DNA of 64,000 nucleotides from an uncultured Acidimicrobiales bacterium (GCA_938021675.1 CALIFY010000025.1:1-64000), one strand, 5' to 3'. Positions 14,690 to 23,217 are shown, numbered from the stretch's first letter. The notes: a model not told the origin generated them from the letters alone. Made by a program: numbers and translations.

Positions 14690-16507
14690 CTATATCCGAC
14701 CAGCGGCAAGCGCCGCCTCCTCAGCCCGGTTGAGCTGGTTGTCGACGATTTGAAGGCCACCATCCCAAAACGCCGGGTCGGCGAGGTCGCAGTCGACGAT
14801 AGCGCCAAGCTCTTCTGGCGAACGGGACCCTCCCGCTCGCAAAAGCTCGAGGTAGGCCGGCACAAACGCGTCGCCTTCGACTTCGTAGCGGGCATAGACC
14901 GACAGGGCGAGCAACTGACCATAGGCGTAGGCGTACACGTACCCCGGCGTGCCCATGAAGTGAGGAACATAGGACCACCAGCTGGCGTAGTTGTCGCTCA
15001 AATCAACCGAATCGCCCATCATGTCGGTCTGACTCCCCATCCACAGCTCGCCGAAACGATCGACCGAAAGTTCACCCGCTTCCCGCCGCTCGGTATGGCA
15101 GGCATGCTCGAACCGATTCATGGCCACCTGGCGGAACACCGTCGCTACCGAATCGTCTACCACCGAGGCCAGAATGGCAAACCGCTCTCCCGGATCTTCG
15201 AGCATGTCGAGGAGCCGGTTGTTCGTTACGGTCTCACCGAACACCGATGCCGTTTCGGCCAGCGTCAGCGGCGTCGACTGATGGTAGATGCCCTGTTCCC
15301 GGGCAAGGTAACCATGAACGCCGTGACCGAGCTCATGGGCCAGGGTCAACACATCGCGAGACCGGCCGGTCCAGTTCAATAAGACGTATGGGTGGTGGCT
15401 CGGTACCGCATAGGCGCAAAACGCCCCCGGCTGCTTACCGGGCCGAATCGGAGCATCGATCCATCGCTCGTCGATGAAACGGCCGACGATGTCGGCCAGC
15501 TCAGGAGAGAACGACCGGTACGCGTCACGCACGATTTCGGTCCCCTCGGACCAGCCAACCTGCTGTTGCCCATCGGCTACCGCCGCCATCCGGTCGTAGT
15601 CGGAAAGACGGTCCAGCCCAATCGCTTTCGCCTTCAGCCGATACCACCGTTGCGGGATGTCGTACCGGTCGACGACAGCGGACACCAACGCCTCAACCGA
15701 CGAGTCGCTCGCCTCATTGGACAGATTTCGGCTCGACAACCACGACGGAAAATTGCGGATTCGATCCTGAACCGATTTGTCGAGCAGCAGCGTGTTGTAG
15801 ATAAAGGCCCGGGTCCGCAGGCCGGGTGCCAAACCGGCGGTTACCGCATCGGCCGCCTGCTCCCGAATCGACCGGTCCGGATGTTGCAATAGTGACAGGC
15901 CCTCCTCCAGCGATGCGGTGCGGGTCTCCACGCTGTCTTCGCCTGTCGCCTCGGGGAGCTCGACGGTAATGGCCGACGTAAGCTCCGAGAACAATCTCAC
16001 CCAAGCCGACGCTCCAGACACCGAGGTTTCGAGAAGCACCGTCTCCTCAGCCTCGCTGAGCATATGGGGCCGGGTCCGGCGGGTATTCTCCAGATGATGG
16101 CGGCAGAACGCCAGCCGATCATCGGCCAGCACCATGGCTGCATGCTCATCGTCGGCGGCGGCGAACTCGAGATCAATGAACACCAACTGGGAGGCGATCG
16201 ACGTCGCCTCTTCCTGCAGCCGCTGCATGAGTGCTCCACGCTCAGGGTCTGCGGTGTTTTCAGAGAACCGCAGCATGCCGTAGTGACCGGCCCGGCTCAG
16301 AAACTCATTCGTCTCGGCCAACGACGTCATTAACTCTGCCAGTGTTGCTGCATCGAGCGTGGCGACCGTACCTCGGTACGCCTCGAGCGAGGTAGCCATC
16401 GCCTTCGCTCGATCGATCAAATCCAGCGGCGAGTCGACACCGGTCAGCAGTGACTCGAGATCCCAGGCGACATCGGCGGCCGTCAGGTCGGCTTCTGTTG
16501 TACTCAT
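14690..16507 (-). CDS. pepF: Oligoendopeptidase F, M3 family metallopeptidase
   Basis: A cytosolic zinc peptidase that trims oligopeptides. The 605-residue protein has the M3 signature HELGHG at about 391-396 in LTLAHELGHGVHGYLA, with the downstream glutamate in TASVFGETVTN as third ligand. The N-terminal helical half (PepF_N-type) and GAFCAYAVPSHHPYVLLN match the PepF/M3B branch. No signal peptide is seen. Length is standard at about 600. It is convergent with udk and stands alone. Confidence 0.94.
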   Translation of the reverse strand: MSTTEADLTAADVAWDLESLLTGVDSPLDLIDRAKAMATSLEAYRGTVATLDAATLAELMTSLAETNEFLSRAGHYGMLRFSENTADPERGALMQRLQEEATSIASQLVFIDLEFAAADDEHAAMVLADDRLAFCRHHLENTRRTRPHMLSEAEETVLLETSVSGASAWVRLFSELTSAITVELPEATGEDSVETRTASLEEGLSLLQHPDRSIREQAADAVTAGLAPGLRTRAFIYNTLLLDKSVQDRIRNFPSWLSSRNLSNEASDSSVEALVSAVVDRYDIPQRWYRLKAKAIGLDRLSDYDRMAAVADGQQQVGWSEGTEIVRDAYRSFSPELADIVGRFIDERWIDAPIRPGKQPGAFCAYAVPSHHPYVLLNWTGRSRDVLTLAHELGHGVHGYLAREQGIYHQSTPLTLAETASVFGETVTNNRLLDMLEDPGERFAILASVVDDSVATVFRQVAMNRFEHACHTERREAGELSVDRFGELWMGSQTDMMGDSVDLSDNYASWWSYVPHFMGTPGYVYAYAYGQLLALSVYARYEVEGDAFVPAYLELLRAGGSRSPEELGAIVDCDLADPAFWDGGLQIVDNQLNRAEEAALAAGRI

Positions 16508-16649: not shown

Positions 16650-16928
16650 TCAACGTTTCGGGGCCTGTTGTTTCAACATCATCGCACTGCCGGACTCGGC
16701 CTCCGCCAGAAGTTTCTTCAACTGCTCGTTCTCGGCTTCGAGCTGTTTCAGGCGTTTCGCATTCTCGGCATTCGCTCCCCCGTATTCGCCCAGCCACCGA
16801 TGCCAAGTCGACTCTGGGATCTCGAGTTGTCGACACACGTCGACCAACTCCATCCCACCGGACATCAGCTCGTGACCATCGGCCAACTTCCGGATGATTT
16901 GTTCCGGAGTTTCTCCCCGTTCTGTCAT
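16650..16928 (-). CDS. IS3-type OrfA-like transposase subunit, orphan
   Basis: The 92-residue protein resembles OrfA of IS3-family elements: TPEQIIRKLADG, a helix-turn-helix (LVDVCRQLEIPESTWHRW, about 26-43), the conserved EYGG, and a leucine-zipper coiled coil (AKRLKQLEAENEQLKKLLAEAE). No OrfB with a DDE catalytic domain follows in any frame, and no terminal inverted repeats were recognised. It is probably the remnant of an insertion, or a domesticated DNA-binding protein. ATG at 16928 is used; 35 upstream codons look non-coding. Confidence 0.75.
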   Translation of the reverse strand: MTERGETPEQIIRKLADGHELMSGGMELVDVCRQLEIPESTWHRWLGEYGGANAENAKRLKQLEAENEQLKKLLAEAESGSAMMLKQQAPKR

Positions 16929-16980: not shown

Positions 16981-18099
16981 CTAGCGGCTGTAGGTCTCGG
17001 TCGTGACCTGTCCGTCTGGGGTCGTGAAGACAAAGTCGACCGTTGTGTCGGTCACGGTGTAGTCGGTCGAACCGATGGCTCCATCCATCTCGAACTCCAA
17101 CCGGTATGAGTTGTCACCCAGGTCCTCGAAGCTGGTGATCGTCGCCCCCGGCAGTGGTTCTCCCGCATTACGGATGGCCGGAGTAGTAGGTTGTGGTTCG
17201 ACTTGGTCGGTGGCCTGGACAACCCCCACCAGCCCGCCGTTGATATACGGATAACTGGACGTGCCGTGATAGTGGTAGGTGCCCTCGGCTCCAACGTGAC
17301 CGTTGTACTCGTCCAAGTCCTCCACTGGCCGGCCGTCCGGCTCGGTTGAGCCGTAGATCGCAAACCCATCGAGGGCGTAGGCAATCGGATTGCCCTCCCC
17401 AACGGCCTCTTGCAGATGCAGCGGAGCAGTGTGGTAGTGGTAGTCGTCGGCCCGTCCACAGTGTCCGCCGAACTCGTCGAGTTCACCGGCCAGGAAGGCA
17501 TCGTCGCCTCTGTTGTTCAACGCATTGAAGATTGGAACCCCGTTGACCGCAAGAGCGATCGCCCCCCGAAAGAGTCCGGTCCTAGCTGAAATCGGTTCGT
17601 CCGCCAGCTCCGGAGTGATGGGGAATCGCCAGGCATTGTCGCCTGTGTAGTCCTGAGGGATGGGGACCTGCTGTTGCCAATTTGTTATCCCCACCATCAT
17701 CGGGTGCGTCGGCAGGCTATTGCACTCGACCATCCACACCTCACCGCTGGTGAAAGCAGCCACGGTGTCGGCAAACGCGTCGAAGCCTGCGAGCCCATCG
17801 GCCGTCGTCGACGCCGGTTCTGGAGCCGTTCCGCTGGAGGCAACGGCAGTAGTGGCCGCCGCGGTGCCGGTCGTATTCGAACTGCACGCGGCGAGAAGGA
17901 TCGCCCCGAGGCCGACTGCACCGGTTCGAATCGCGGTCCGCCGATCGAGCACCGGTGAGCCGTGGGGCGGTGTGCGCCGGGCAACGTGGCCGGGATGGTG
18001 AGGGTGCACGTGGTCGTGGTGACGGTCGTAATGAGAGTCGTCATGAGGGTGAGAGTGGTCGTGGGAGTGGGAGTGAGAGTGGTCGTGGGAGTGGCTCAT
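16981..18099 (-). CDS. YHYH-domain lipoprotein with a histidine-rich N-terminus
   Basis: The 372-residue protein has three parts. Residues 1-38 hold 17 histidines, mostly His-Ser/Asp-His repeats. An RR-containing hydrophobic signal follows, with Arg53-Arg54 and a lipobox LAAC ending at Cys72, so export as a lipoprotein (possibly Tat) is predicted. The C-terminal region carries the YHYH signature twice, at about 220-223 and 275-278, with GGHCG and ALDGFAIYG between. The function of YHYH proteins is unknown to me; metal binding is an inference. GGAG lies 9 bases before ATG 18099. It is downstream of a second lipoprotein gene and near a two-component system. Confidence 0.88.
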   Translation of the reverse strand: MSHSHDHSHSHSHDHSHPHDDSHYDRHHDHVHPHHPGHVARRTPPHGSPVLDRRTAIRTGAVGLGAILLAACSSNTTGTAAATTAVASSGTAPEPASTTADGLAGFDAFADTVAAFTSGEVWMVECNSLPTHPMMVGITNWQQQVPIPQDYTGDNAWRFPITPELADEPISARTGLFRGAIALAVNGVPIFNALNNRGDDAFLAGELDEFGGHCGRADDYHYHTAPLHLQEAVGEGNPIAYALDGFAIYGSTEPDGRPVEDLDEYNGHVGAEGTYHYHGTSSYPYINGGLVGVVQATDQVEPQPTTPAIRNAGEPLPGATITSFEDLGDNSYRLEFEMDGAIGSTDYTVTDTTVDFVFTTPDGQVTTETYSR

Positions 18100-18157
18100 G
18101 TACGGTTCTCCGTTCAGAGTTCTTCTGGATCTGCTCAATCGTCCGACTGCGGCCCGT

Positions 18158-18880
18158 TCACGAGACCGTTGTGCGGAACAGGACCGTGTTGTCGATCTCC
18201 AGGTCGGCCCCCCAGACGAGTTGCGCCGAGGGGTCCCAGCTGATCTGGTCGTAGCCATCCTTCGGATCCACATCAGCGGCACTCCAAACGGTGGCGTCGA
18301 CCCAGCTGCTGTCGTCGAAGTCGACCGTCGTCCAGTCGGTCGGGGTGTCGAGGATCGAGAACTCACACGCTGTATCCGGATCATCGGACCGTTCGCACTC
18401 GGTATTCAGCGGCGCCTGGTGGACCACGAACGCCGACCAGCCAGAATCGGTAACGGCAACGACTTCGCCGGTCGCCTCCTCGGTGATTTGGGCGATGATT
18501 CCACCGTCGCCCATTTGCTGATTCTGTTCACCGATGTATTCGATACCCGAGTCGGTTTCTTTGTAGTCCTTCGCTTCGATGGCGACGACGAACGGGGTGG
18601 TGGCTTCGAACGCGAACGTCTCCGCGTTGAAGGAGCGCTCGGTCGTGATCGGCACCGAGTCCTCGCCCACCAACTCACCGTCGACGAACACGGCGCTCCA
18701 GTTGTCCGCCCACACCTCAACACGGAAGGTCGATTCGTCGCCCGACGGAGTGCTTGCCGTATCCACAAGTTCCGTTTCGTCCTGGACCACACCGTCAACT
18801 ACTCCGGTCGTCGTCGTATCCGATCCGCACCCGGAGGCGAGAATCGCAGCGGCGATGACGAATGAATAGGTCCGACTCAT
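18158..18880 (-). CDS. Predicted lipoprotein with a jelly-roll-like domain
   Basis: The 240-residue protein starts with a lipoprotein-type signal (AAAILASGC, Cys18) and a Thr/Asp-rich linker. The rest reads as a beta-sandwich: VEVWADNWSAVFVDGELVGE, then FDDSSWVDATVWSA and a C-terminal DLEIDNTVLFR. Such endings are typical of galactose-binding-like domains fused to glycosidases, so carbohydrate or cell-surface ligand binding is possible but unproven. GGAGAG lies 4 bases before ATG 18880. It is 58 bases upstream of the YHYH gene, so they are probably one transcript, divergent from the histidine kinase gene. Confidence 0.72.
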   Translation of the reverse strand: MSRTYSFVIAAAILASGCGSDTTTTGVVDGVVQDETELVDTASTPSGDESTFRVEVWADNWSAVFVDGELVGEDSVPITTERSFNAETFAFEATTPFVVAIEAKDYKETDSGIEYIGEQNQQMGDGGIIAQITEEATGEVVAVTDSGWSAFVVHQAPLNTECERSDDPDTACEFSILDTPTDWTTVDFDDSSWVDATVWSAADVDPKDGYDQISWDPSAQLVWGADLEIDNTVLFRTTVS

Positions 18881-18903
18881 GGGGCTCTCCGGTCGTTTGT
18901 CGG

Positions 18904-18963
18904 GGTACTTCTTTGACTGCTTCGGTTCAAACATATGAAGTTCCTCGCTGCGCCGGAAGTACC
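18904..18963. promoter_or_regulatory. Repeated GAAGTACC-like elements in the divergent lipoprotein/kinase intergenic region
   Basis: GGTACTTC (18904-18911) is the inverse of GAAGTACC (18956-18963), and a near copy GAAGTTCC (18937-18944) lies between, 19 bases from the latter. Repeats of this kind between divergent promoters suit dimeric response-regulator binding. The link to the adjacent regulator is inference. Confidence 0.4.
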
Positions 18964-19055
18964 GGTCGGCACCGATGTGGCGGAACTGCACCTGCCGATC
19001 AGCACGTGTTGACCGGCACTTGTCCTTTAGGCCCAATCGTCCGACACTGGAGGCC

Positions 19056-20177
19056 ATGGATTGGTTGCAGAGAGTTCGGCGCACAGAGATCCTGGTCGCC
19101 TGGGTCGTCGCCAGCGGCGTCGCTGCAGCCGGTGCCTATGACTTCCGCCAAGGCGAACCACCACGGGGGCTGGTCACGACCGCTCCCGACGTCCGTTTCA
19201 TGGTCTTCACCGGTTCGTGTGTAGCCGCGGCAGCTCTGGCGACGGCCATGCTCGAAACGACGACGAGCCGCCTACGACAGGCGTTGCGAGCGTTGACGCT
19301 CATGGCCGGTATTCTGGCCTCTGTTCTGGCCGATCCGACCTACAGCTCCCTGCTGCTCGCCGTGCCACTCATCGAGATCCGACGGCGTGACGACGAACCT
19401 TTCAGGAGCCTCTGGACCTTTCTGGTGATCGGCCTGGCGGCGTGGCTGCTGGTGACCGAGGACACGCCACGGGTTGTCGCCGAGGTTGAGGCGATGTTTG
19501 GTCTCGCCATAGCATTCTTCATCATCGTGATGTTCGGTGACGCACTTCGACAACTTGACCGGGGCCTGGAGAACGAAGTAGAGCTGGCTCAGCTCAACGA
19601 ACGCAACCGCTTGACCGCCGACCTGCATGACAGCGTCGGGCACCATCTTCTCGCCTCGTCGGTGCAGTTGCAGAAGGCGAGAGCGGTCCGTGAGCGCGAC
19701 GTCACCGAATCGTTCAAAGCCGTCGACTTCGCCGCACAGGCGGTCGCCGAAGCAATCTCCGAGACCCGCTTCATCGTCGATGCCGGCCGACATGAACGAG
19801 CGTTCGAACTACAATCGGCCATCCAGCGTTTGGCGCGCCGTGTCGTACCGGCCTCCACCAACTTCACCCTCGACATGACAGGCGATCACCACCGTCTCGA
19901 CCCCCTTGTCCAGATCGCCCTGTATCGCGTTGCCCAAGAGGCGCTCAGCAACATCGTCCGTCACGCAACCGCCACTTCGGCGCAGATTGCCACCAAGACC
20001 TGCGCCAAGGGTGTACGGCTCGAAGTCATCGACAACGGTTCCGGATTCGAACTTGCGACAAACCGTGAAGGTGGAGGCCTGGAAAACATGAAGCGACGCA
20101 TCGAGGACCTCGACGGGTCGTTCACCGTCACGTCGACCCCCGGCCGCACATCGGTATTGGCCACACTGCCGACATGA
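19056..20177 (+). CDS. Sensor histidine kinase, HisKA_3/LiaS-like
   Basis: The 373-residue membrane kinase has about five hydrophobic segments in residues 12-162 with short loops, so it probably senses within or near the membrane. A linker helix leads to the HisKA_3 phosphoacceptor His191 in LTADLHDSVGHHLL. A compact HATPase_c domain follows with N-box EALSNIVRHA, DNGSGFE and GGGLENMKRR. GGAGG lies just before ATG 19056; upstream codons were rejected. It overlaps the response regulator gene by 4 bases (ATGA) and is divergent from the lipoprotein/YHYH pair. Confidence 0.92.
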   Translation: MDWLQRVRRTEILVAWVVASGVAAAGAYDFRQGEPPRGLVTTAPDVRFMVFTGSCVAAAALATAMLETTTSRLRQALRALTLMAGILASVLADPTYSSLLLAVPLIEIRRRDDEPFRSLWTFLVIGLAAWLLVTEDTPRVVAEVEAMFGLAIAFFIIVMFGDALRQLDRGLENEVELAQLNERNRLTADLHDSVGHHLLASSVQLQKARAVRERDVTESFKAVDFAAQAVAEAISETRFIVDAGRHERAFELQSAIQRLARRVVPASTNFTLDMTGDHHRLDPLVQIALYRVAQEALSNIVRHATATSAQIATKTCAKGVRLEVIDNGSGFELATNREGGGLENMKRRIEDLDGSFTVTSTPGRTSVLATLPT

Positions 20178-20824
20178 CTCCAATCCGCCTGATGATCATC
20201 GAAGACCAGTGGATGATTCGAGACGGCCTGGCCGCGCTGGCTCAGATCGCCGACAACATTGACGTCGTGGCGACCGGCGCCGACGGAACCGAAGCGATCG
20301 CACTCGCCTCCCGACATCAACCCGACGTAGTCCTGATGGATATCAAGATGCCGAAGCTCAACGGCATAGAAGCCACGAGAAGAATCAAGGAATCGCATCC
20401 AACCATCGCCGTGCTTGTGTTGACAACCTTCGAGGAAGACGATCTCATCCACGACGCCTTCGCCGCTGGAGCGGTCGGCTACCTGACAAAGGACATCGCA
20501 GCCGAAGACCTTGCCGACGCAATCGCAACCGCAGCGAAAGGGATAGTCCAACTAACCCCAGGGGTCGCCGCTCGCGTCTTTCCGAAGCCGTCAGCCCAGC
20601 GCCGCGAGCTCGACGACGAGGCCGAGACGATCTCGCACCTCACTCCCCGCGAGCGGGAGGTGCTTCGCCTACTTGCAACCGGCGCCACCAACCCCGAGAT
20701 CGGCCGGCAGCTCCACATCAGCAAAGGCACCGCCAAGAACCACGTCTCGGCCATTCTTCGCCAGCTCGGCATCAAAGACCGTACGCAGGCAGCCGTCATC
20801 GCTTCTCGGTACGATCTCCGGTAG
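20174..20824 (+). CDS. NarL/FixJ-type response regulator
   Basis: The 216-residue partner of the adjacent kinase. The receiver domain has the acidic pair Glu10-Asp11, phosphoacceptor Asp56 in VVLMDIKMP, the Thr of VLTTFEE and the Lys of YLTKDI. The C-terminal LuxR-type helix-turn-helix (about 152-210) shows LTPREREVLRLLATGATN and KNHVSAILRQLG. Likely targets are its own operon and the divergent lipoprotein genes. It converges on pheT with a 14-base gap. Confidence 0.94.
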   Translation: MTPIRLMIIEDQWMIRDGLAALAQIADNIDVVATGADGTEAIALASRHQPDVVLMDIKMPKLNGIEATRRIKESHPTIAVLVLTTFEEDDLIHDAFAAGAVGYLTKDIAAEDLADAIATAAKGIVQLTPGVAARVFPKPSAQRRELDDEAETISHLTPREREVLRLLATGATNPEIGRQLHISKGTAKNHVSAILRQLGIKDRTQAAVIASRYDLR

Positions 20825-20838
20825 ACGGCGAGCCGTGC

Positions 20839-23217
20839 TCACCGGAGCTCTGCTCCGTGGCGCCGTTCGACCTCGTCGATGCACCGTTGGCGAACCTCCG
20901 CTACCTCTTCGTCGGTCAGCGTACGGTCGCTGGCCTGAAGTCGGATCTGATAGGCCAATGACCGTCGACCCTCCCCTACCTGTTCACCCCGGAACACGTC
21001 GAAGAGCTGCACGGTCCTGATGACGCCGTCACCGGCTTTACGAATAGTGCTGGCAACATCGGTTGCCGCCACGTCGTCAGCCGTAGCGAAGGCCAGATCG
21101 ATATCGCTCGACGGATACAGCGAGATAGGCCGATACTTCGGAACCGAGGCCAACGCGTCGACGAGCGGCAGCACCTCGAGTTGAAGCCAGGCCACCCGAC
21201 CGGACAGCTGGTAGCGCTCAAGCACACCGGGGTCGACCTCGCCAACCGACCCGATCGATCGACCACGAAAGCGGACTTCGCCGGCCCGAGTCGGATGCAA
21301 TCCAGGAACCTCGGCATTGGCGATCGTGACCCCCGACAGTCCAAGATCAGCGGTCATCCGATGGAGCGATCGAACCGCGGCGTGGGCGGCAGCCTCGCTT
21401 TCCTCATCGGTCCCCGTCCCGAATCCAGACGCGACGGCTGCGAGATACTCGTGCTCGTCCGGAAGCTCGTCGGCAGATGGAAGGTACACCCGTCCGAGTT
21501 CGTAGAGCCGTACTCCGTCGATGCGATGTGCCTGATTCCGGCCGATGGCCTTCAACAAGCCCGGGAGCAAAGAGGTTCGCAGAACAGACTCCTCAGCTAC
21601 CAGCGGATTACTCAACGTGATAGCGGACGTTTCCAGTCCGGCCATGGCGAGATCTCCCGGAGCCAAGAACGGCATGGGCATGGCCTCGGAAAATCCGTCG
21701 GCCAACAGGGCCTGGCGGATGCGCCGACGACCGAGTTGATGGGGTGTCAACCGGCCGAACTGCTCGGGCGTCGGGACCCGTTTTCCGGATTTCTCGTACC
21801 CGTGATGCCGTCCGACCTCTTCGATCACATCTTCCTCGATCGAGGAATCCGGACGCCACGTCGGAACGGTGACCATAAGCCCGCCATCGGTTGGCGAGGC
21901 CTCAAAGCCGATCGGATCGAGCAGGGCCGCAACCTCGTCCGTGGTCAACCCGGTATTCAACAACCGGTTGACCCGATCGGTTCGGACCAGCACGGTGACC
22001 GGTGGAGCGAGGTTGCCGTGCTCGATGACCGAGCCGGTGGCAACTTTCGCCCCGCAGATCTCGACCGCAAGCTCGGCGAACCGGTCGAGGGCACGTTCGA
22101 TTCCCATCGGGTCGACGCCACGCTCGAAACGGGTCGACGCTTCCGACCGCAAGCCGAGGCGCCGTGACGTCTTGGCGATCGTCATCCGATCCCAGACCGC
22201 TGCTTCGAGCAACACACTGGTCGTACCTTCGCCGATCTCGGTCGATGCCCCACCCATGACCCCGGCCAGGCCGATGGGGGTGTCGCCGGCATCGACGATC
22301 ACGCCATCGTCGGCGGTAAGCGTGCGGTGGACATCGTCGAGTGTGACCAACGTTTCGCCAGCTCGGGCCATTCTGACACCCAGATGACCGTTGGAAACAG
22401 TGGCCAAATCATAGGTATGGTTCGGTTGGCCCAGTTCGAGCATCACGTAGTTCGAGATGTCGACGATCGAGTTGATCGGCCGCATACCGGCGGCGGTCAG
22501 TCGGTTCGCCATCCAAGCCGGAGATTGGCCGACCGACACATTGTGGAGCACGCGTATCCCGAAGCGCGAACAGAGGTCGGGGGCAGCGATAGTTACCGAC
22601 GCCCCGGTCGACGCCGCAGGATCCAACTCCGACAGCGACGGCGACGGCAACTCGAACGGAACCCCCAGGCGAGCCGAAAGGTCTCTGGTGACACCTGCGA
22701 CAGAGAGGGCGTCGGGTCGATTGCCTTCGATATCGAGGTCGAACAATGTGTCTTGTTCCGCACCGAGGGCGTCGGCCAGCGAACTCCCGACGTCGAGGTC
22801 CGGGGCGAGGACCATGATCCCATCGGCGTCCTCTCCCAGTTCAAGCTCGGAGGCCGAGCAGATCATGCCGTTCGACCACTCGCCGCGCAGCTTGCGGCGC
22901 GCAATCTCAAGACCTCCCGGCATCGTTGTGCCGATGGTGGCCAGCGGCACGAGATCCCCAACCGTCATATTGAACGCGCCGCAGCAGACCTGGAGCGGTT
23001 CCCCGTCACCACGGTCTACGTCTACAAGCTGGATGCGGTCGGCTTTGGGGTGGGGCCGAAGGTCGACAACTCGACCGACGACGATTCCGTCCCAGTTGGC
23101 ACCGATCGTCTCCACTCGCTCGACGACCATACCGAGGTCGGTCATCGTGTCGGCCAACGCCGACGGATCACCGTCGACCGGGGCGAACTCTCTCATCCAC
23201 GACAGCAGGACTTTCAT
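20839..23217 (-). CDS. pheT: Phenylalanyl-tRNA synthetase beta subunit
   Basis: The large subunit of the (alpha-beta)2 enzyme. The 792-residue protein has the N-terminal EMAP/OB tRNA-binding domain (about 40-150, VGRVVDLRPHPKADRIQL), the B3/B4 editing region, the B5 domain, a catalytic-like core with SNPLVAEESVLRTSLLPGLL, and the C-terminal ferredoxin-like anticodon-binding domain ending SDRTLTDEEV. Length is standard. It lies 84 bases after pheS and is the last gene of the infC operon. Confidence 0.97.
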   Translation of the reverse strand: MKVLLSWMREFAPVDGDPSALADTMTDLGMVVERVETIGANWDGIVVGRVVDLRPHPKADRIQLVDVDRGDGEPLQVCCGAFNMTVGDLVPLATIGTTMPGGLEIARRKLRGEWSNGMICSASELELGEDADGIMVLAPDLDVGSSLADALGAEQDTLFDLDIEGNRPDALSVAGVTRDLSARLGVPFELPSPSLSELDPAASTGASVTIAAPDLCSRFGIRVLHNVSVGQSPAWMANRLTAAGMRPINSIVDISNYVMLELGQPNHTYDLATVSNGHLGVRMARAGETLVTLDDVHRTLTADDGVIVDAGDTPIGLAGVMGGASTEIGEGTTSVLLEAAVWDRMTIAKTSRRLGLRSEASTRFERGVDPMGIERALDRFAELAVEICGAKVATGSVIEHGNLAPPVTVLVRTDRVNRLLNTGLTTDEVAALLDPIGFEASPTDGGLMVTVPTWRPDSSIEEDVIEEVGRHHGYEKSGKRVPTPEQFGRLTPHQLGRRRIRQALLADGFSEAMPMPFLAPGDLAMAGLETSAITLSNPLVAEESVLRTSLLPGLLKAIGRNQAHRIDGVRLYELGRVYLPSADELPDEHEYLAAVASGFGTGTDEESEAAAHAAVRSLHRMTADLGLSGVTIANAEVPGLHPTRAGEVRFRGRSIGSVGEVDPGVLERYQLSGRVAWLQLEVLPLVDALASVPKYRPISLYPSSDIDLAFATADDVAATDVASTIRKAGDGVIRTVQLFDVFRGEQVGEGRRSLAYQIRLQASDRTLTDEEVAEVRQRCIDEVERRHGAELR

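Follow-up and report, generated by a model that had tools for sequence, protein, structure and literature searches.

Proteins with a YHYH domain occur in bacteria, phages and diatoms, and the papers we found assign them no tested function. Their metal site is predicted to bind zinc (PMC7824862), and the YHYH domains of phages are fused to tail or lectin domains and predicted to act as metal-dependent hydrolases (PMC7824862, PMC7029224). A calcium-dependent rhamnose-binding module, CBM67, has been described in SaRha78A of Streptomyces avermitilis, where domain D is named as the carbohydrate-binding module (PMC4690510). Here we study a gene set that combines a YHYH lipoprotein with a second lipoprotein of predicted CBM67-like fold, which we call LIP. 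It lies in a stretch of 64,000 nt from an uncultured Acidimicrobiales bacterium (GCA_938021675.1 CALIFY010000025.1:1-64000; this whole stretch is the window, and coordinates count from its first letter; see Table 1). The two lipoprotein genes are on the minus strand, divergent from the genes of a membrane kinase and a response regulator on the plus strand, and gene calls, coordinates and domains bear out a preliminary description of this arrangement across a 175-bp intergenic region (18881-19055). Parts of this set recur in several bacterial phyla and are seemingly undescribed so far. The reading that we favour, with slightly less than even confidence, is that of a surface glycan-binding module and a twin-arginine translocation (Tat)-exported metalloprotein under the control of a two-component system (TCS), in which a metal stimulus is unnecessary.

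LIP, PEBP and YHYH genes form a recurring set. The LIP survey is LIP-centred and built on two peptide patterns, so the linkage rates given here are only descriptive; titles of metagenome-assembled genome records may be wrong, and the gene calls in the compared loci are mechanical. Our second LIP scan gave 80 loci, in records titled Actinomycetota, Chloroflexota, proteobacteria, Myxococcota and Verrucomicrobia. Counting genes within 6 kb of LIP, we find a YHYH gene in 36 of these loci and a PEBP gene in 26. The partners are also fused to one another, as LIP::PEBP (L077, L078, L082, L129-L132, L135) or as PEBP::YHYH (L124, L140), and LIP stands beside YHYH genes on Rhodobacterales plasmids too. 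On these plasmids (L208, L209) the annotation of the free LIP reads 'PEBP family protein', probably a carry-over from the LIP::PEBP fusions. Some LIP loci hold genes for a calcineurin-like phosphoesterase, a multicopper oxidase or a HupE/UreJ protein; among freshwater actinobacteria (L129, L130, L131, L135), two calcineurin-like phosphoesterases flank the Tat-YHYH gene in an apparent operon with the LIP::PEBP fusion. Seven records titled 'Bifidobacterium breve' (L097, L101, L103, L110, L112, L119, L141) are placed by the LIP tree with freshwater actinobacteria; these titles are probably mistaken. On a Vibrio plasmid (L210), close to conjugation genes, a 327-aa protein contains a distant relative of LIP (27%), and the phage records searched hold no LIP.

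What kind of protein is LIP? It has no significant family in Pfam, NCBIfam, PHROGs, PADLOC or a PDB sequence search. Its AlphaFold2 model (predicted local distance difference test, pLDDT, 92) has two structure matches well above the rest: a Pleurotus ostreatus lectin at Z 10.5, and residues 166-299 of SaRha78A (3w5m) at Z 10.3, with a root-mean-square deviation of 3.2 over 126 residues. The jelly roll of ligand-binding type that had been proposed for this lipoprotein thus stands, on a model that matches lectin and CBM67 domains. Alignments show that residues 166-299 are an extra, inserted domain that a plain GH78 enzyme does not have, and hhalign sets LIP Asp59-Asn60, a pair invariant in 73 rows, against SaRha78A Asp179-Asn180. 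Because the fold matches and the Asp-Asn motif aligns, LIP is, as modelled, CBM67-like in fold and motif, and it probably binds sugar through calcium held by the invariant pair. A different GH78 domain from CBM67, Pfam Bac_rhamnosid_N, is matched by 18 of the 73 LIP rows (best E 0.00098). PF08531 was first taken as the CBM67 domain and then dropped, since the alignments show CBM67 to be a separate inserted domain; no PF08531 rhamnosidase was found in the Streptomyces genomes that carry LIP.

The kinase and regulator are, by predicted domain content, a TCS, with the kinase H-box and the receiver Asp56 of the regulator both present. Across 248 genomes of the order, 15 carry LIP and four a kinase orthologue (threshold E<=1e-40), in all four cases adjoining LIP. 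Orthologues of kinase and regulator stand beside LIP in 8 of the 80 loci, partly in the same genomes as the set of 248, and OmpR-type kinase or regulator genes are near LIP in nine further loci, among them the gammaproteobacterial order regulator-kinase-LIP-PEBP::YHYH. One lineage (L073, L076, L161) encodes, within a few genes of the TCS-LIP pair, a P-ATPase of copper type together with a CopZ-like protein and a regulator of the MerR type. Conservation of the neighbourhood, the check set beforehand for the proposal of an envelope response system, is borne out: TCS and LIP keep company around a shared operator and LIP and YHYH do so across phyla. All four genes together are seen only in this genome among the genomes and loci surveyed, and at the other loci of this TCS type no YHYH gene lies beside LIP.

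The shared operator is a candidate target for the regulator. The motif CAAGTGY..CAC/GTGCCGATCGGCA is common to all eight aligned loci (the window and seven others), and a third dyad follows, its spacing varying in most of these loci by no more than +-1 base. Nine dyads, in 5 of 7 loci, reach 12 or more matches out of 14, where first-order shuffles lead us to expect 0.06. A sequence-only operator model (R2) has as its best match a held-out locus, L081 (1.6e-8), and has no match in any LIP locus without this TCS. At L081 the operator is upstream of the kinase and LIP is at the opposite end, not divergent; the operator therefore belongs to the TCS promoter. The bacterium's own genome has one clear site, with all other matches at E about 0.5 or worse, and order-wide the four best matches are the four TCS loci, all of which were used in model building. 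Weak matches in G016, G083, G181, G062 and G223 were dismissed because the neighbouring genes have no similarity to this TCS. We infer that the regulator probably binds here.

These same observations allow LIP to be placed upstream of the switch: LIP could be the sensor partner of the kinase, with ligand-bound LIP docking on the small membrane domain to set its activity and the operator autoregulating the whole sensor. A simple hydropathy scan gives the kinase four hydrophobic segments and no sizeable extracytoplasmic domain, the kinase is not found without LIP, and the two diverge together (their identities correlate at r=0.87 over 7 loci, in pairs that are not independent); the placement of the L081 operator upstream of the kinase, though LIP is not divergent there, also fits. 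However, adjacency and co-divergence suit LIP equally well as an output gene, and most LIP genomes lack this TCS, so LIP has a use of its own. We consider a sensor role unlikely, if worth keeping in view.

The YHYH protein brings a second set of expectations. Its start ATG has GGAGA upstream, and Arg-Arg at 53-54, a hydrophobic stretch and Cys72 (DRRTAIR...LLAAC) follow a pattern conserved in the Tat-YHYH subfamily, by which we mean the 25 closest YHYH relatives including the window protein; by this predicted signal it counts as a Tat-type lipoprotein, and the genome encodes TatC. His141, His149, His151 and Asp172 (alignment numbering) are invariant in 40 rows. Close Tat-YHYH relatives occur in 2 of 396 sampled genomes of the phylum (this one and G136), both LIP-adjacent. 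The same genome has six further YHYH genes (L001, L002, L003, L004, L029, L034); of these, the ones whose start can be read resemble Sec-type lipoproteins that have no His-rich tail of the pre-Tat kind, and in L003 a His/Asp-rich stretch follows the signal. Kinship of the YHYH protein with lipid-binding barrels, raised by the PDB fold search, was not accepted (Z <=7.5, mainly over C-terminal beta strands). It might be thought that YHYH acts on cell wall or surface polymers, as a metal-dependent hydrolase of the kind suggested for phage tails, with LIP as its targeting lectin. The predicted hydrolase activity and tail/lectin fusions of phage YHYH domains, the lectin-like character of LIP and a BFVD match to a cyanophage YHYH protein (7.9e-8) all point this way. 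Against it, structure searches turned up no solved structure related to the YHYH core, for which no mechanism of catalysis is known either, and the protein has no PHROG match; we doubt this reading about as much as a sensor role for LIP.

The histidines at the N-terminus of the YHYH protein are as the preliminary description had them, 17 within the first 38 residues and all ahead of the signal with its lipobox Cys72, and we find such a His-rich stretch ahead of the twin-arginine motif in 24 of the 25 subfamily members. The exception, L126, has an N-terminus that is unreadable in the called frame. Freshwater actinobacteria have the tail as MNHEHEVRHLTEVDRR and Streptomyces, at the other end of the range, as HHEHGYIRLP; its recurrence shows that it is not there by chance. 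It is missing from other Tat proteins encoded next door and from the other YHYH proteins of this genome (one of which runs off its locus), and a literature search with limited terms found no paper that deals with a His-rich segment preceding a Tat signal. Because it is placed ahead of the signal, the tail would act only inside the cell. That it serves as a metal sensor, as had been suggested, does not hold up: the tail tracks the YHYH subfamily, whose other loci all lack this TCS, and since it is present irrespective of this TCS it is not part of the sensor.

A related and broader idea is an envelope metal response: the TCS would answer a metal such as copper or zinc, which the His-rich protein would bind or load. 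The conservation of the tail in the subfamily and the conserved His/Asp set of YHYH with its predicted zinc binding (PMC7824862) favour it, as do neighbours such as a multicopper oxidase (L105, L115), a metallophosphatase (8 loci), HupE/UreJ (2 loci) and a copper-type ATPase near L073/L076. Yet these metal-related neighbours vary by locus, the other loci of this TCS have no YHYH beside LIP, the tail stays inside and is conserved where this TCS is missing, and LIP resembles a glycan binder. We find it improbable. Of the earlier proposal of an envelope metal or ligand response, what survives is that the genes form a real unit, that LIP has a fold of ligand-binding type and that the His-rich segment is a conserved feature; a metal stimulus is not supported, and the fold and motif of LIP point to carbohydrate and calcium. 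Least likely by our estimate is that the tail is a functionless repeat expansion in a dispensable signal-peptide n-region: in the window protein it is a Ser-His/Asp-His repeat in mostly CAC codons, and its length varies among relatives, but differently worded tails in 24/25 members, out to distant actinobacteria, and their absence from adjacent-gene Tat proteins speak against it.

We return to the TCS-controlled glycan-binding module and Tat-exported metalloprotein. The membrane kinase and NarL-type regulator would be a dedicated local switch, with the regulator most likely on the triple-dyad operator of the 175-bp region, controlling its own operon and the LIP-YHYH operon. LIP would be a surface lipoprotein of CBM67-type fold, with sugar probably bound via calcium on the Asp-Asn pair. 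YHYH is probably a metal-dependent envelope protein that folds and acquires its metal in the cytoplasm before Tat export, and the His-rich tail, confined to the cell interior, would gather metal or dock a chaperone until processing at Cys72 takes it off. What we infer here is that the operator is occupied, that LIP binds sugar and calcium, which metal and enzymatic activity belong to YHYH, and what the tail does. In SaRha78A, Asp179/Asn180 are presumably calcium/rhamnose ligands. Several points weigh against this reading. Trp203 of SaRha78A, presumably at the sugar site, has no clear LIP counterpart and falls in a gapped stretch of the hhalign alignment, and the sequence similarity between LIP and CBM67 is weak (hhalign E 6.1e-5 but probability 65). 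The operator, except at L081, is known only from loci that built the model. Moreover, this genome is the only one in which a YHYH gene is found alongside this TCS, and its proposed control by the regulator is read from operon position.

A more general claim is possible but doubtful: that CBM67-like lipoprotein, PEBP and Tat-YHYH make up an undescribed multi-phylum surface module in which the cytoplasm-retained His tail loads metal into YHYH before export, here under a dedicated TCS. Should the tail indeed load metal pre-export, the question of how Tat substrates come by the right metal would have a new answer. For YHYH function, the handles are LIP as a recurring partner, PEBP as a partner by fusion, the regulator and its defined operator, and, ahead of the Tat signal, a conserved tail of metal-binding type.

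How did the set come to be in this genome? In 11 relatives, among the loci examined, pheT is followed directly by pepF, whereas the window has the four genes, together with an IS3-type OrfA remnant, exactly between the two; because of this adjacency in relatives, the four genes plus remnant are a discrete insert. The remnant adjoins the cassette and has no recognised OrfB. The base composition of the cassette has no foreign signature, and therefore the insertion is old or the donor was a similar genome. In the LIP tree, the window LIP falls among Acidimicrobiales LIPs; the main TCS group is close by, whereas most LIPs linked to Tat-YHYH genes stand apart, and the LIP-YHYH gene order is the reverse of that in most operons with a Tat-YHYH gene. 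The simplest reading is a TCS-LIP cassette that gained a Tat-YHYH gene.

Table 1. Features of the locus and its flanks in the window.
Feature	Coordinates	Strand	Basis
YHYH lipoprotein, 372 aa, Tat-type signal, lipobox Cys72	16981..18099	-	Pfam YHYH 39.7 vs cut-off 25
His-rich N-terminal tail, 17 His in 38 residues, ahead of Tat signal	17986..18099	-	translation
Twin-arginine motif to lipobox Cys (RRTAIRTGAVGLGAILLAAC)	17884..17943	-	conserved in subfamily
Lipoprotein LIP, 240 aa, lipobox Cys18, predicted CBM67-like jelly roll	18158..18880	-	73-row alignment A2 and structure model
LIP WADNW motif (Asp59, Asn60)	18698..18712	-	W-x-D-N-W invariant in 73 rows
Candidate operator, two adjoining dyads, conserved (CAAGTGCCGGTCAACACGTGCTGATCGGCA)	18991..19025	-	aligned in 8 loci
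Candidate operator, third dyad (GTGCCGACCGGTACTTCC)	18955..18972	-	spacing +-1 base in loci where matchable
Membrane sensor histidine kinase, HisKA_3 and HATPase_c	19056..20177	+	Pfam, above cut-offs
NarL-type response regulator, receiver and LuxR/NarL-type helix-turn-helix	20174..20824	+	Pfam Response_reg 3.8e-27, GerE 1.1e-18
IS3-type OrfA remnant, 92 aa, within pheT-pepF insert	16650..16928	-	Pfam HTH_Tnp_1 2.6e-11
pheT, one flank of insertion site, outside system	20839..23217	-	relatives compared
pepF-type M3 peptidase, other flank, outside system	14690..16507	-	directly after pheT in relatives

Set against known systems, each component has a relative from which it departs. With the CBM67 of SaRha78A (PDB 3w5m, domain D), LIP has in common the jelly-roll fold, the Asp-Asn pair and a Gly-x-x-Gly stretch, but it is a free lipoprotein with no attached glycosidase, identity is about 21%, and LIP has an additional Cys-containing stretch ahead of its last third. 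The Pleurotus ostreatus lectin POL (PDB 6kbq, 6t1d), itself a sequence relative of CBM67 (4e-28), has the same fold as LIP but is a tandem fungal lectin with Asp-Asp where LIP has Asp-Asn. The window YHYH protein is above the cut-off of Pfam YHYH (PF14240) and shares its conserved His/Asp set; it differs in its best match, which spans positions 2-110 of the 193-position model, in its Tat-type signal with a His-rich tail and in a distinct C-terminal beta domain. Finally, the NarL, MadR, MctR and LiaS-type systems, which are the best NCBIfam matches of kinase and regulator, share with the window TCS a HisKA_3 kinase and a LuxR-type regulator, whereas the window TCS scores far below all of their curated equivalog cut-offs, has an operator of its own and is always found beside LIP.

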